A DNA stretch of 26,958 bases from a virus, in IMG/VR virus record IMGVR_UViG_3300030099_005191, positions 1 through 26,958 of that record; one strand, written 5' to 3'. The notes beneath the pieces were generated by a model. It was given only the letters and a program-made list of their open reading frames with translations. It ran no database searches and was not told the DNA's origin. Positions 20,297 to 26,958 of this stretch are shown here, piece by piece. The position numbers and the translations under genes are program-made. Each line of letters starts with the position of its first letter. Position 1 is the first letter of the stretch.

Positions 20297-20304
20297 TATT
20301 TATT
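20297..20304 (-). promoter_or_regulatory. Late-promoter-like octamer AATAAATA
   Basis: A 7/8 match to TATAAATA on the minus strand, overlapping the permease stop and 15 nt before the ATG of the 45-aa coiled-coil gene, with GAGGTG between. Low specificity in AT-rich DNA. Confidence 0.35.
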
Positions 20305-21263
20305 TAGTATCCATTAGGAACTATTACATAATGTATAGCTAAAACTATTCCTACTGATACACCTAAACCAATCATCATTTTAAAAAAGTCTTTTGCAATA
20401 AAAGGAAACACTCCTTTAAATTTTGTTCTAGCTGTAAATGTTGCAATAGCTAATTCTCTTCCTGTTAATAATCCAACAAACACCCAAGTAGTTGACATTG
20501 GTATATCGTTTAGTTCTTTAAAGAAAAATAATACTAACCAATAAACTAAGTCAATTAAACAAGCACTTCTTACATACTTTGTATGATGTTTTTCTAATAC
20601 TATCTTTTGGATCCTACCACCACGTTCTTTAAACATATATGCTAAACCACATACAAAGATTAAAGATATAATCATCATCCAATCAAATGGAACTTGCCTT
20701 GGTAAGAACACAGCTATGTTTGCCATATCATGACTCAACCAAGTCATCCATAAGAACCCTGTAGTAAACCATTGAGCTACTCGCCAATATTTCTTATGAT
20801 GTTCTTCTGGGTGTTTAGATTCATCTAATATTTTTGTTATACCAAACCAAATACAATATGCAGCCATTCCAGCTAATGCATATCCCATCATAGATTTCAT
20901 TAACATTTTTTCTAAAACAAATGTACTTGCAAAAGCTGATAATACTAGAAATGAAGTACTAACAGGAACACCTAGTCGTGTTAACAATATTAGTATGGCT
21001 GGTGCCATAGCATGATACCATTGTATCTCTACATAAGGTATTTTATTTAATCTTCCATATGATATATCACCATAGTTAGTTGTCCAGCCATACCACAATG
21101 TCCATAATAGAACACCTGATGCAGCTAACCATAAAGTCTTCCAATGAAATCTTTCTTTATTAGATGCTATGAATGTACCTAATGTTTGTACTGAATCGTT
21201 TGCAATAACTGAATAAGCAGCAAATAAAAATCCTAGTGCCATCCATAAACTCAAACCTTCCAT
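20304..21263 (-). CDS. PiT-family-like inorganic phosphate permease
   Basis: A 319-aa polytopic membrane protein, roughly nine to ten hydrophobic segments. PiT-type inverted-repeat signatures are visible: repeat 1 has IANDSVQTLGTFIAS (residues 20-34) and later GVPVSTSFLVLSAF (98-111); repeat 2 has WLSHDMANIAVFLP (175-188) and NDIPMSTTWVFVGLLTGREL (252-271). ND near the first helix and P-x-ST-[ST] before a pore loop match the phosphate/cation site layout of PiT/Pho-4 carriers. Bacterial PiT proteins are usually 400-500 aa, so this is a compact version. It would let the infected cell import phosphate for DNA synthesis. Strong AGGAGG Shine-Dalgarno sequence. It follows the outer-membrane barrel gene by 9 bp. 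Substrate is inferred from family. Confidence 0.8.
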   Translation of the reverse strand: MEGLSLWMALGFLFAAYSVIANDSVQTLGTFIASNKERFHWKTLWLAASGVLLWTLWYGWTTNYGDISYGRLNKIPYVEIQWYHAMAPAILILLTRLGVPVSTSFLVLSAFASTFVLEKMLMKSMMGYALAGMAAYCIWFGITKILDESKHPEEHHKKYWRVAQWFTTGFLWMTWLSHDMANIAVFLPRQVPFDWMMIISLIFVCGLAYMFKERGGRIQKIVLEKHHTKYVRSACLIDLVYWLVLFFFKELNDIPMSTTWVFVGLLTGRELAIATFTARTKFKGVFPFIAKDFFKMMIGLGVSVGIVLAIHYVIVPNGY

Positions 21264-23787: not shown

Positions 23788-24180
23788 CTATTCTTTGCAA
23801 CCACACTTTACTTCATAATCTTTAATCGCAGCTTTGATAGCGTCTTCTGCAAGAACAGAACAATGGATCTTAACTGGTGGTAACGCCAAAGTTGTTGCAA
23901 TGTCAGTATTCTTAATTCCTCGTGCTTCATTTGTCGGTTTTCCTTTTACCATTTCAGTTATTAATGAACTGGATGCAATTGCTGAACCACATCCAAAAGT
24001 TTTAAATTTAGCATCAGTAATAGTATTAGTTTCTGGATCTACTTTGATTTGTAACTTCATTACATCACCACAAGCAGGTGCTCCTACTAAACCAGTACCT
24101 ACATTAGGATCATTCTTATCCATGGATCCAACATTTCTTGGATTCTCATAATGATCTATTAATTGTTTACTATATGCCAT
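23788..24180 (-). CDS. iscU: Fe-S cluster scaffold protein IscU
   Basis: A 130-aa, complete IscU, very close to the bacterial protein (E. coli 128 aa): AYSKQLIDHYENPRNVGSMD at the start, GAPACGDVMKLQIKV with C37 and D39, KTFGCGSAIASSS with C64, and LPPVKIHCSVLAEDAIKAAI with H106 and C107. The LPPVK motif (100-104) recognised by the HscA chaperone is intact, so it should engage the host ISC machinery. Two extra cysteines end the protein (C126, C128 in KCGCKE). A perfect TATAAATA lies 5 nt before the ATG with no Shine-Dalgarno sequence, so it is probably a leaderless late gene. The A-type carrier is encoded 1.4 kb upstream. Confidence 0.95.
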   Translation of the reverse strand: MAYSKQLIDHYENPRNVGSMDKNDPNVGTGLVGAPACGDVMKLQIKVDPETNTITDAKFKTFGCGSAIASSSLITEMVKGKPTNEARGIKNTDIATTLALPPVKIHCSVLAEDAIKAAIKDYEVKCGCKE

Positions 24181-24185
24181 ACTAT

Positions 24186-24193
24186 TATTTATA
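24186..24193 (-). promoter_or_regulatory. T4-type late promoter TATAAATA, 5 nt before iscU ATG
   Basis: A perfect octamer followed by ATAGT and the ATG at 24180. It overlaps the stop codon of the 312-aa gene. The predicted start coincides with the A of ATG, giving a leaderless transcript. Confidence 0.75.
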
Positions 24194-25127
24194 TAAGTTT
24201 AAGTTGTTCCGTTATTCTATTAACATAATCATCTCTAACCATATCACCTTCATGTACAAATAACATACAAGAACAATATGCACAGTTTCTTCCTTGTAAA
24301 AGATAATCTAATATTATATGTTTATAATCTTTAATTTTATCTTCATATTTAATTAAAGGAATAGTATCAATGTTATTTCTATCTAATAATTCAACAGAGT
24401 TATATATAAAATCTGTTGTATCTTTATGTGTCAAGTTATTAATTTTTAAAAACTCAGCATATTTGTTTCTATCTCTATTATATAAACTAAACAATAAAGA
24501 ATATACTGTACCTAATTGATGTTTCAATTCATCAGATTCAAATAGATCTGCTGTATCACTTATTAGTCCATCAGGAGTAACATCACTAATAGCTGCTTTG
24601 TCCCATAAGAAGTTCCATTCACTATCTAACATATATTCTAATAACTCAGTTAACTTTTTTGGATCACCATTATCTTCAATGTATTCTTTTCTATTACATT
24701 TATAATTCATAATAAAATAATATTGTTTATTAAATGGATCATAATTAACCATGTCTATTATATCTACTGAAGATCTTTTAAATATTCTTGAGTTCTCAAC
24801 TATAGTTTTTTCTTTGACACTACAACCACCAATATAATCAGGAAAGAATGGTTGATATCTTGATTGAAATATTCCTGTCTTATTCTTCCATACTTTTTTA
24901 GTTACTCTATAACCCATATAAAAGATATCTGTCTTTATAACATCTTCATAATCAATATAACTTTCAACATTTAATTGATGATGGAATTTATATGGTATAC
25001 CAGTACCCTTATAGTAATGTTTGGATCCTTTCCATACACGACCTCTAACATAAGTTAAATCATCTTTGATAAGTATCTGATCTGTTTTATTACCTTGTTC
25101 ATTGTAGATTGGTACGACTGTATGCAT
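24189..25127 (-). CDS. Orphan protein, 312 aa
   Basis: I do not recognise this family. The protein is soluble and rich in Tyr, Asp and Lys. Residues 1-110 are probably beta-rich (DQILIKDDLTYVRGRVWKG, YIDYEDVIKTDIFYMGYRVTKKVW). It has a scattered GGC (GGCSVKEK) and Cys in YKCNRKEY. The C-terminal half is helical and ends with a compact cysteine group C282-x2-C285-x-C287 (NCAYCSC), a possible metal site. This is not a CxxxCxxC radical-SAM motif. It has its own TTGACT-N17-TACAAT promoter just upstream and lies between pqqA and iscU on the same strand, so it may be part of the same metabolic block; its role is unknown. Confidence 0.6.
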   Translation of the reverse strand: MHTVVPIYNEQGNKTDQILIKDDLTYVRGRVWKGSKHYYKGTGIPYKFHHQLNVESYIDYEDVIKTDIFYMGYRVTKKVWKNKTGIFQSRYQPFFPDYIGGCSVKEKTIVENSRIFKRSSVDIIDMVNYDPFNKQYYFIMNYKCNRKEYIEDNGDPKKLTELLEYMLDSEWNFLWDKAAISDVTPDGLISDTADLFESDELKHQLGTVYSLLFSLYNRDRNKYAEFLKINNLTHKDTTDFIYNSVELLDRNNIDTIPLIKYEDKIKDYKHIILDYLLQGRNCAYCSCMLFVHEGDMVRDDYVNRITEQLKLI

Positions 25128-25132
25128 GATGC

Positions 25133-25161
25133 ATTGTACCTTAATTGTTAAGAAAAGTCAA
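25133..25161 (-). promoter_or_regulatory. Sigma70-type promoter for the 312-aa gene
   Basis: On the minus strand TTGACT (25156-25161), 17-nt spacer, TACAAT (25133-25138), then GCATC and the ATG at 25127. It shares its -35 and spacing with the hydrolase promoter. The start would lie at or next to the ATG. It begins 1 bp after the hairpin that follows pqqA. Confidence 0.7.
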
Positions 25162-25162
25162 T

Positions 25163-25200
25163 GGGCAGATTCAATCCTCTATGGGAATTATACTCTGCCC
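25163..25200 (-). terminator. Stem-loop after pqqA (terminator or mRNA-stabilising hairpin)
   Basis: Perfect 7-bp arms GGGCAGA/TCTGCCC, with inner pairing AATTCC/GGATT (one bulge) around CATAGA. It begins 10 nt after the pqqA stop on the minus strand. The following bases (ATTGACTTTTCTT) are only moderately U-rich, so termination may be partial. A promoter for the next gene starts right behind it, separating pqqA from the downstream gene. Confidence 0.65.
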
Positions 25201-25210
25201 AAACTTTGAT

Positions 25211-25288
25211 TTACTGCTCAGCGCAGGCGTAGGAATTGATTTCCAGACCAACTGAGATTTCAGTAATTTGAGGTTTTGTCCAAGCCAT
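25211..25288 (-). CDS. pqqA: PqqA, peptide precursor of pyrroloquinoline quinone
   Basis: A 25-aa frame with ATG at 25288, strong AAGGAG Shine-Dalgarno sequence 7 nt upstream and TAA at 25211. It begins MAWTKP and continues with TEISVGLEINSYACAE. The E-x3-Y pair (E16, Y20) is the invariant Glu/Tyr that PqqE crosslinks to build PQQ. Length (PqqA 22-29 aa) and the G-x-E-I-N-S-Y core match alphaproteobacterial PqqA, as in acetic-acid bacteria and Methylobacterium. GC is 44% (34/78), above the AT-rich surroundings, with CTG, GCC and TGC codons, suggesting recent transfer. No pqqB-E is visible, so maturation would rely on host PqqB-E. A GC-rich structured leader precedes it and a hairpin follows. 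Confidence 0.88.
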   Translation of the reverse strand: MAWTKPQITEISVGLEINSYACAEQ

Positions 25289-25322
25289 GTTTTGCTCCTT
25301 ATATTAATATTAATATTTGTGT

Positions 25323-25351
25323 GAGCCGGTTGCCGAACGACCGCGGTCCTC
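25323..25351 (-). promoter_or_regulatory. GC-rich structured element in pqqA leader
   Basis: A 29-nt patch with 21 G/C bases in an otherwise AT-rich region, 35 nt 5' of the pqqA ATG. It contains the self-complementary GACCGCGGTC (25339-25348) and closing arms GAG/CTC with CCG/CGG inside. It could be an RNA hairpin in the pqqA 5' UTR or a dyad operator. An AT-only stretch (ATATTAATATTAATATT) separates it from the Shine-Dalgarno sequence. Confidence 0.5.
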
Positions 25352-25384
25352 ATACATTATGTATATAACTATACAACATTGTAT
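25352..25384. repeat. Two adjacent ATACA/TGTAT inverted repeats
   Basis: ATACATTATGTAT (25352-25364) and ATACAACATTGTAT (25371-25384) are two dyads sharing half-site ATACA with centres 19-20 bp apart, about two helical turns. A weak TTAAGA-N16-TATATA promoter reading toward pqqA overlaps them, so they may be paired operator sites. No regulator is identified. Confidence 0.45.
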
Positions 25385-25463: not shown

Positions 25464-25607
25464 TTAGAACCATTCACGTAATTTATCGAGTGGTTTTCTA
25501 AGAGGTCTATATGCGTTCATAATAAGTTCAATATGCTCGTCAAGTTTCTTTTCTATACGATCAATCTTCTTTTCAATTTTATCAATTTTGTTTTCAAGAT
25601 CAGACAC
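25464..25607 (-). CDS. Small coiled-coil protein, 47 aa
   Basis: A 47-aa frame beginning GTG at 25607 with GGAG 9 nt upstream and overlapping the A-type carrier stop by 8 bp. The sequence is a heptad coil (DLENKIDKIEKKIDRIEKKL, then DEHIELIMNAYRPL) followed by a basic amphipathic tail (RKPLDKLREWF). Coding is supported by the clean heptads, overlap with the upstream gene and Shine-Dalgarno sequence. It is the last gene before the pqqA leader. Function unknown; tail-end WF suggests protein or membrane contact. Confidence 0.55.
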   Translation of the reverse strand: MSDLENKIDKIEKKIDRIEKKLDEHIELIMNAYRPLRKPLDKLREWF

Positions 25608-25923
25608 CAAATGATTCTCCACAACCACAAGACGATTTAGTTAATGGATTATTAATTTTAAGAAAACTACCCATAAGTTCTTGTACATAATCTATTTCAC
25701 TACCCATAATATACATCTCTGATACTTTATCTATAGCAAGTACAACATTATCTTTGATTGGGTGTATAGCATAAGAATTATCGTAACTATCAAGATAATC
25801 CCACTTATAACTAAATCCTGCACAGCCTCCTCCTGATACTCCAAACGATACTATATCTTTATTGTTCTTTTTTGCTATAGAATAAATATATTCTTTTGCA
25901 CTATCTGTCAGTGTAACTATCAT
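25600..25923 (-). CDS. A-type Fe-S carrier (IscA/ErpA/SufA-like)
   Basis: A 107-aa A-type carrier: early VTLTDSAKEYIYSIAKKN, then FGVSGGGCAGFSYKW with C34, and the terminal NNPLTKSSCGCGESFGV with C99 and C101. These three cysteines are the invariant cluster ligands, and the length is that of IscA (107 aa). It delivers Fe-S clusters from IscU-type scaffolds to apo-enzymes. Which A-type subfamily (IscA, ErpA or SufA) cannot be decided by eye. The ATG at 25923 lies inside the end of the SoxYZ-like gene (23-bp overlap) with no nearby Shine-Dalgarno sequence, so it is translationally coupled to it. IscU is encoded downstream on the same strand. Confidence 0.92.
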   Translation of the reverse strand: MIVTLTDSAKEYIYSIAKKNNKDIVSFGVSGGGCAGFSYKWDYLDSYDNSYAIHPIKDNVVLAIDKVSEMYIMGSEIDYVQELMGSFLKINNPLTKSSCGCGESFGV

Positions 25924-26671
25924 ATTTAAACATATTCCCTAAATTATCAACTGCTTCTATATAAACATTTCTATTATTAGTATTTATTGGCATCATAAAA
26001 AAAACATCTTGTGCTATACCAATAGTTCCACTATATTCCCAAACCATTACTCCATCAACCCACATCTTTACATTTTCAATATACTCAGCTGGTATTTCAG
26101 CTCTAGTTAATTGATTAAACTGCATACCTGAATAATTAGGATGCCATATTTTTATTTTTGTCCAACCATTTGATTGTAGTAAATTTATTGTACCAAAAGG
26201 TTTATCTGTTGTAGTAGCTGGTGGTGCTGAACAACCTCCAGCAGCTTTTATAAATTGTTTATTATATCTTATGGATCCATAATTATTTTCAGATACTAAT
26301 GTTAAATGGGTATAAGCATTGACTCTTACATTGGTTAATATGTGTGGTTCTATATTATAAAATTCAAACACAGCGCAACATGGTGTAGGGTTCTCATCAA
26401 TGATTAATGTTAATTTGGTGTAGTGTTGAATTCCGACACCTATATCTCTTAATGATAGTTCCACACCAGCAGGATCTATAGCTCTGTATGGTGCTTGAAT
26501 ATCTATACTATCATCATAATATAGTTGCTCATCACCATAAAGGTCTTGTTTAAGATATTCATCCCATGAATTAGTATTAGCATATACTGAAGCTGCTAAC
26601 CACATTATTAATCCAAACACAACAAACAACATATACATAAACCATCTTAGAAACCAATCTGGATCTCTCAT
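25901..26671 (-). CDS. Quinoprotein dehydrogenase-associated SoxYZ-like carrier
   Basis: A 256-aa periplasmic fusion of SoxY-like and SoxZ-like domains. Residues 11-31 are a signal peptide (FMYMLFVVFGLIMWLAASVYA). The SoxY-like part contains VRVNAYTHLTLV (115-126) and KAAGGCSAP (142-150), where C147 corresponds to the SoxY carrier cysteine. The SoxZ-like part has IWHPNYSGMQFNQLTR (175-190), AEIPAEYIENVKMWVDG and VYIEAVDNLGN. This combination (NAYTH, GGCSAP, HPN-SGMQ-x-QLTR) is typical of TIGR04557, the fused carrier found with PQQ-dependent alcohol dehydrogenases in proteobacteria (from memory). ATGA overlap with the upstream gene. pqqA lies 0.6 kb downstream. An extra C98-C99 pair is present. 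Confidence 0.85.
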   Translation of the reverse strand: MRDPDWFLRWFMYMLFVVFGLIMWLAASVYANTNSWDEYLKQDLYGDEQLYYDDSIDIQAPYRAIDPAGVELSLRDIGVGIQHYTKLTLIIDENPTPCCAVFEFYNIEPHILTNVRVNAYTHLTLVSENNYGSIRYNKQFIKAAGGCSAPPATTTDKPFGTINLLQSNGWTKIKIWHPNYSGMQFNQLTRAEIPAEYIENVKMWVDGVMVWEYSGTIGIAQDVFFMMPINTNNRNVYIEAVDNLGNMFKYDSYTDR

Positions 26672-26958
26672 CTATTTCTCCAATCTCTTTTATCGCCTCT
26701 CGGCTGTTTAATTGTTTTGACACATATATGATCACTATGTGTTGTTATCACAAATTCATCTCTTATTTCTTTGTAGTCTTGACATCTGTAGTGACATTTA
26801 ACAGAGTCTTCACCAAAGAAAGGTTCAACTCTTTTTTCTTTTACCAATCTACAGTCCACTGTGTATTGGTTTCTTTGATCATAAAGTTTGCCTTTACCAG
26901 ACCATTTATAGTTTTTAGAATCTGATATAGTTGGGTATAAAATTATAAGTGCTATAAG
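26668..26958 (-). CDS. Secreted Cys-containing protein (5' end beyond window)
   Basis: The frame is open from the window edge to the TGA-type stop at 26668; an internal GTG at 26859 is not needed. The visible start, LIALIILYPTISDS, reads like the end of a signal-peptide core, so the protein is probably exported. The following ~80 residues contain KWSGKGKLYDQRNQYTVDC and four cysteines (in VDCRL, VKCHYRC and HICVK), which could form two disulphides or a haem/metal site; no CxxCH is present. It ends basic (KQPRGDKRDWRNR). It overlaps the SoxYZ-like gene by ATGA, so the two exported proteins are co-translated. No family recognised. Confidence 0.6.
   Translation of the reverse strand, partial: LIALIILYPTISDSKNYKWSGKGKLYDQRNQYTVDCRLVKEKRVEPFFGEDSVKCHYRCQDYKEIRDEFVITTHSDHICVKTIKQPRGDKRDWRNR

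Follow-up and report, generated by a model that had tools for sequence, protein, structure and literature searches.

Background

The closest described counterpart of the locus presented here is the Lake Baikal virus VP_266, in which a lone PqqA was reported in 2020 and read as an aid to PQQ-dependent methanol oxidation (PMC7678222). Viral pqqA also appears as a list item in PMC13188868, and in PMC9004378 PQQ is mentioned only as a medium vitamin. The bacterial gene for this PQQ precursor peptide is captured by the families PF08042 and TIGR02107, and PqqE is a radical SAM enzyme of the Fe-S type (PMC5715301). The SoxYZ-like carriers of the family TIGR04557 are represented in P. putida by PP_2677 of the ped cluster, where the family is listed among the proteins that go with PQQ-dependent alcohol dehydrogenases (PMC12997753).

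In this study I describe a pqqA gene in a virus fragment of 26,958 bases, the whole of which is called the window. It carries T4-type genes, among them gp32, gp59 and the gp6 baseplate wedge, the latter with its best isolate matches in the Methylophilales phage Melnitz (41%) and the Pelagibacter phage HTVC008M (41%); the PF07068 profile (T4 gp23), used for phage typing, matched nowhere and was uninformative. The window and VP_266 both belong to T4-like phages whose hosts use PQQ, and in both PqqA stands alone. However, the Baikal population also has a methanol dehydrogenase and was assigned to Methylophilaceae, and no leader RNA is described for it (PMC7678222). Phage pqqA itself has been reported already; what appears to be new is the leader RNA, together with its exclusive link to pqqA, and the genes in isolate phages.

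Results

The first-pass annotation had placed a pqqA gene at positions 25211-25288, and its identity stands, but the strand had been missed, as had the SoxYZ-like neighbour, the leader RNA, the spread of the gene across other phages and the earlier account in PMC7678222. The gene lies on the minus strand (25211..25288), from an ATG at 25288-25286 to a TAA at 25213-25211, i.e. 25 codons and a stop, and the plus-strand reading of the same interval is ruled out by an internal stop. The product, MAWTKPQITEISVGLEINSYACAEQ, scores 36.3 bits against the PF08042 PqqA profile (cut-off 21.1, E 5.3e-9) and 39.6 bits against the NCBIfam equivalog TIGR02107 (cut-off 20, E 3.1e-10), and a PqqA-shaped DNA pattern matches once in the window vs. 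never in 100 shuffles. Judged by sequence, the identity of this open reading frame as PqqA is near certain. The features earlier claimed for the peptide, its PqqA length, the Glu-x3-Tyr pair used for PQQ building (E16-x3-Y20) and a G-x-E-I-N-S-Y core (here G-L-E-I-N-S-Y), are all found in the minus-strand frame of 25 residues, and the strong Shine-Dalgarno sequence (SD) can be read as AAGGAG (25295..25300, minus strand), 6 nt before the ATG.

Absence of the frame from related phages had been named as grounds for rejecting the gene; instead, relatives keep the frame, purifying selection acts on it, and it turns up again in phages that are not related to the window. It is found in the same place in L241 and L242, close relatives with 89-92% identity on a neighbouring gene, and in the more distant L016, and in the window as in these three it is bracketed by IscA-like and IscU-like genes. 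Within the window clade, pqqA differs by 9-12 synonymous vs. 0-3.5 nonsynonymous changes (9 and 0, respectively, over 22 codons between the window and L242), with a pN/pS of 0.053, and for 63 distinct phage copies pN/pS is 0.173. The residues W3, P6, G14, L15, E16, I17, N18, Y20, A21, C22 and A23 never change in 63 of 63 distinct copies, a set of which the first part was fetched by a pattern fixing W, P, G, E and Y and the others via the leader motif, which does not fix them. The low pN/pS and the invariant residues suggest that phage PqqA is a functional substrate rather than a relic. Being a host-type metabolic gene in a phage genome, conserved and under selection, phage pqqA is a putative auxiliary metabolic gene.

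A PqqA pattern scan of 2.9 million viral contigs gave at least 120 matches; every match listed translates to a PqqA-like peptide, and among the matches listed an SD precedes nearly all pqqA genes. Several phage types can be told apart, namely GFEVTMY, as in methylotroph phages, the window's GLEINSYACAEK, and GLEINCYACAEI. Among GenBank phages the GFEVTMY type occurs in all four Melnitz strains, Venkman, MEP301, MEP401, MEP402 and P19250A, and an unannotated PqqA is encoded in 6 of 6 matched isolate species of Methylophilales phage, i.e. the LD28 phage P19250A and five OM43 phages, which are all the OM43 isolates listed by PMC10580990. The complete, unannotated genes of these cultured phages are located on the minus strand of KX815270.1 (28085-28153), MW452941.1 (3316-3384), MT375522.1 (9977-10045), OP830906.1 (41902-41970) and OP830907.1 (43050-43118), and on the plus strand of MZ577097.1 (76134-76205). 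All of them have an SD, and in Melnitz an annotated open reading frame on the opposite strand covers pqqA. While PMC7678222 states that phage P19250A has none of the reported genes, it does encode a complete PqqA. PHROGs has no PqqA family for the window type or for four other phage PqqA types, so that annotation tools miss the gene; together with the isolate records that leave it unannotated, this agrees with the earlier remark that pqqA is too small for usual gene calling. Two contigs deposited in GenBank as 'Acinetobacter phage MD-2021a' (CAKLQF020000010.1 and CAKLQH020000055.1) also matched the PqqA search; the inspected one, CAKLQF020000010.1, is a bacterial ppk-pqqABC region that looks like chromosome mislabelled as phage, and the match was discarded.

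The closest cellular PqqA peptides are MAWTKPMISEISVGLEINSYACAEK and its variants, from genomes of the HIMB59/AEGEAN-169 type. In the alignment with host sequences that had been proposed as a check, the PqqA of these bacteria is of the same length as the window's, is identical at 22 of 25 positions (88%) and has both E16 and Y20. The host is thus most likely an AEGEAN-169/HIMB59 alphaproteobacterium, as judged mainly from this peptide of 25 residues. The 20 HIMB59-type genomes (G001-G020) have 2-5 pqqA copies each, and as these genomes are small, the host seems to invest in precursor dosage. PqqE is present in 17 of the 20, and a TIGR04557 carrier likewise in 17, within about 10 kb of pqqA-pqqE; in G002, pqqA, pqqE and the carrier all lie within about 8 kb, and the pieces of this region that were examined encode PqqC, PqqD, PqqE and XoxF. 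A placement of the extra host copies beside quinoprotein dehydrogenases is not supported (4 of 76 within the loci examined). Several host copies are far from pqqB-E, and some form convergent or tandem pairs (L126, L148, L238).

The window has the precursor gene without pqqB-E, as first noted, and for PqqE the same holds in 50 related phage records (0 of 50, about 1.7 Mb, all fragments, with L288, later shown to be a chance match, among them). A PQQ_2 (quinoprotein) dehydrogenase is likewise found in 0 of these 50 fragmentary records. As all the phage records are fragments, absence of pqqB-E may not extend to the whole genomes. The companion suggestion, that host enzymes do the rest, gains in part, since the likely host clade has PqqE and several pqqA copies.

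Upstream of pqqA, the window encodes a quinoprotein dehydrogenase-associated SoxYZ-like carrier (25901..26671, minus strand) with an N-terminal hydrophobic, signal-like segment and a GGC motif. It matches TIGR04557 over the full length with 135.8 bits, 4 bits below the cut-off of 140, which five relatives of the window clade pass (140.2-143.3 bits). The phage protein resembles PP_2677 and the other carriers of the family in this full-length match and in the GGC carrier motif, and the longer motif KAAGGCSAP is common to the phage and host proteins; it differs in being phage-encoded, with about 29-35% identity to the proteins of the likely host. The carrier is present in 6 of the 50 related records, including all 5 window-clade records of the set.

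The flanking genes encode an IscA/ErpA-like Fe-S cluster protein (25600..25923, minus strand; PF01521, TIGR00049 86.3 bits) and an IscU-type Fe-S scaffold (23788..24180, minus strand; TIGR01999 213 bits, cut-off 192.4). Fe-S genes occur in other marine phages as well. As PqqE is an Fe-S enzyme, these two genes may act with pqqA, and it is a speculation that their products aid PqqE. Between iscA and pqqA, a small coiled-coil-like frame with a GTG start can be read (25464..25607, minus strand), with counterparts in L242 and L016. Further upstream, a frame of 63 amino acids (26668..26859, minus strand) is also found near pqqA, with 62-70% identity, in podovirus-like contigs (L014, L023, L031, L079, L111, L124). 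Just 3' of pqqA, a hairpin GGGCAGA..TCTGCCC (25158..25204, minus strand; fold z = -3.2) is a possible terminator, and similar hairpins follow pqqA in L242, L241, L016 and L023. The downstream gene (24189..25127, minus strand), of no known family, adjoins pqqA in L241 and L242 also, and is preceded by a promoter-like TTGACT-17-TACAAT (25133..25161, minus strand), a consensus match only, which makes pqqA look like a transcription unit of its own.

A side-by-side comparison of leaders brought out a GC-rich motif shared by these AT-rich phages. In the window it forms a structured leader RNA of ~43 nt, the pqqA leader element (25316..25358, minus strand), which scores 46.3 bits with the covariance model and still 19.9 bits with a model from which its own class had been left out. 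Its layout in the window is P1 - GN - CCG/CGG - C bulge - GGUC..GGC - AA bulge, and the aligned consensus reads P1 - G(N) - CYG - C - GGUC - loop 3-7 - GRC - AA - C - CRG - P1'. Among 44 distinct leader sequences, 9 pairs show changes on both sides; the Y-R pair is C-G in 19 and U-A in 25, and P1 occurs as GTG/CAC, GAG/CTC and GAA/TTC. The covariation score is 0.330 vs. 0.153 (sd 0.013) in shuffled alignments, is reached by 0 of 500 shuffles, and collapses once the strands are slid. Most of the A2 sequences are pattern hits with fixed inner bases; P1 is unconstrained by the class A pattern, and the class B pattern fixes only its 3' side, so that the P1 pairs are the fairest covariation evidence. 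The C bulge and the AA bulge are invariant in 44 of 44 distinct leaders, with these bases fixed by the search pattern itself. The leader RNA is a real element, and its conserved structure with covariation in the 5' leader is one of the marks of a riboswitch. Like the translational riboswitches and leader RNAs of Rfam, it is a small, conserved hairpin whose bulges do not vary, and it lies 5' of an SD that could be masked. However, no Rfam family matches it at gathering score, and relaxed searches gave chance matches only; a likeness to the P3 stem of SAM-I riboswitches likewise found no support in Rfam.

The association of this RNA with pqqA is exclusive in phages. A complete scan of all 2.9 million viral contigs for class B (CTG/CAG) gave 100 stretches, 98 of which have pqqA 22-45 nt downstream; of the others, L287 is cut by the contig end just after the pqqA start and L288 is a GC-rich chance match. 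The equally complete scan for class A with a GTG stem gave 31 stretches, 30 with pqqA and 1 cut by the locus end. Taken together, pqqA is downstream in 146 of 146 readable placements in AT-rich phages and other genes in 0, where some placements are one contig fetched twice and about 140 contigs are independent. A re-paired control (CAG/CTG instead of CYG/CRG) gave 120 matches, none of them before pqqA. In 461 kb, a covariance model made from class B alone recovers the leaders of class A, that of the window and the one before rpoH described below, and nothing else. Leader and pqqA occur together in T4-like phages (the window, L242, L016, and L256 with gp32) and in the podovirus-like L014 and L063, which have T7-type primase/helicase, PolA and ribonucleotide reductase, and the cassette has probably been exchanged between the two kinds of phage. 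The leader RNA is missing from many phage pqqA genes, among them every one from the methylotroph phage isolates.

A derivation from a host pqqA leader was rejected, as the element is absent from 94 host pqqA loci; two hits among host loci (L124, L159) carry phage-type pqqA and look like mis-binned phage contigs. A single cellular case was found in the HIMB59-type single-cell genome G014, where the leader RNA (45.6 bits; L470 1501-1546, which is contig 2, 10940-10985, minus strand) precedes chromosomal rpoH, the gene of the heat-shock sigma factor. It was not found before 18 other HIMB59-type rpoH genes, in the other 31 genomes of the order, or, with strict filters, in 384 of 385 alphaproteobacterial genomes sampled. 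Either a transfer from phage to host or an origin in the host may account for this case.

The best folds computed for these leaders frequently leave the conserved element unformed and pair its 3' strand with the SD. For the window, the predicted alternative pairing is between GCUC, the 3' strand of P1 (25323..25326, minus strand), and GAGC in the SD (25294-25297); for L258 the prediction is CUUCU/AGGAG, and for L245 and rpoH it is CAGC with GUUG 3' of the SD, plus CU/GG. Over 18 clusters the predicted pairing of the SD to the 3' strand of the element averages 0.39, vs. 0.13 in shuffled sequences (p 0.0008) and 0.21 in linker-only shuffles (p 0.027), although 2 of the 18 (L247, L344) show almost none and several others do not exceed a control. 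The predicted openness of the SD is 0.31 in phage leaders vs. 0.40-0.41 in controls and 0.68 in the pqqA leaders of HIMB59/AEGEAN-169 hosts, which have no leader RNA. Since stabilising the element would free the SD, the pqqA leader looks, in these folding models, like a translational ON switch.

Discussion

The explanation that I consider probable as a whole is that a T4-like phage supplies a leader-controlled pqqA for PQQ synthesis by its host. The working phage gene would give the infected cell more precursor, which host PqqD/PqqE and the later enzymes would turn into PQQ by crosslinking Glu16 to Tyr20, excising the peptide and completing the cofactor. That host enzymes use the phage peptide as a PQQ precursor is likely, and the added peptide may in this way boost PQQ, which would keep periplasmic quinoprotein (XoxF-type) dehydrogenases of the host supplied and pass electrons to respiration during infection. 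With the SoxYZ-like carrier, the phage would contribute one more component of this host system. The leader would set the output of peptide: folded, it would leave the SD free, and unfolded, its own 3' strand would pair with the SD and keep translation low.

Two other accounts of pqqA itself have to be weighed. As a lone substrate, phage PqqA could compete with the precursor of the host, and so act as a decoy, keeping PqqD/PqqE occupied and reducing the PQQ of the host; however, a decoy would not need both of the crosslinked residues, E16 and Y20, that are kept in 63 of 63 distinct copies, and the phage also encodes a quinoprotein-associated carrier, so that I regard this as very unlikely. The 88% identity to host copies would also suit a recent passenger of host DNA or a mis-binned host fragment without function, but the T4-like genes on the same contig, the conserved position in relatives, the low pN/pS of 0.053 and a phage-type leader that is missing from host pqqA genes make this exceedingly improbable.

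That the leader acts as a riboswitch is a good working hypothesis. In its most specific form, the RNA would be a new, almost phage-only riboswitch class that senses PQQ, an intermediate of the PQQ pathway or a sign of host state, turns on translation of the phage-supplied precursor, and has been passed, along with pqqA, between phages of the T4-like and podovirus-like kinds; this is a tentative proposal, less likely than not. The rpoH case in G014, where the same RNA including the SD hairpin is found, implies that the signal need not concern PQQ, and the leader might instead signal the state of infection or stress, as a riboswitch or another kind of RNA regulator that the phage acquired from, or has in common with, host genes such as rpoH, with pqqA as just one beneficiary. 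Yet the RNA occurs in just 1 of 32 genomes of the order and 1 of 385 alphaproteobacterial genomes, in phages pqqA alone follows it, and the rpoH case may itself be a phage-to-host transfer, and I hold this reading to be rather unlikely. Phages often shield abundant short mRNAs by 5' hairpins, and the leader is near promoter-like sequences in many contigs, which would fit a hairpin for stability or enhanced translation, or a site bound by some protein of phage or host, without a small-molecule ligand. The invariant unpaired C and AA bulges of the 44 sequences, even if fixed by the search pattern, exceed the needs of a plain hairpin, though, while one T4-like group has the leader directly after the upstream gene with no evident promoter, and the predicted SD pairing is above the controls; a role of this kind is doubtful to a similar degree.

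The leader is a previously undescribed regulatory element of phages, and its single clear target gene makes it a good candidate for an orphan riboswitch. To supply only the peptide that is consumed would be an unusually cheap form of metabolic help for cofactor supply, and the recurrence of pqqA in phages of separate kinds points to a shortage of PqqA in infected cells that depend on PQQ. Since the gene escapes annotation tools, any part that it plays in the oxidation of C1 compounds and sugars in infected marine cells has been underrated, and the six cultured species of methylotroph phage with unannotated pqqA open the idea to testing now.

Elsewhere in the window, a membrane protein (20304-21263, minus strand) has a weak similarity, below cut-off, to PHO4 phosphate transporters, and similar N-termini are found in L385 and L437, both of which have pqqA and the leader.
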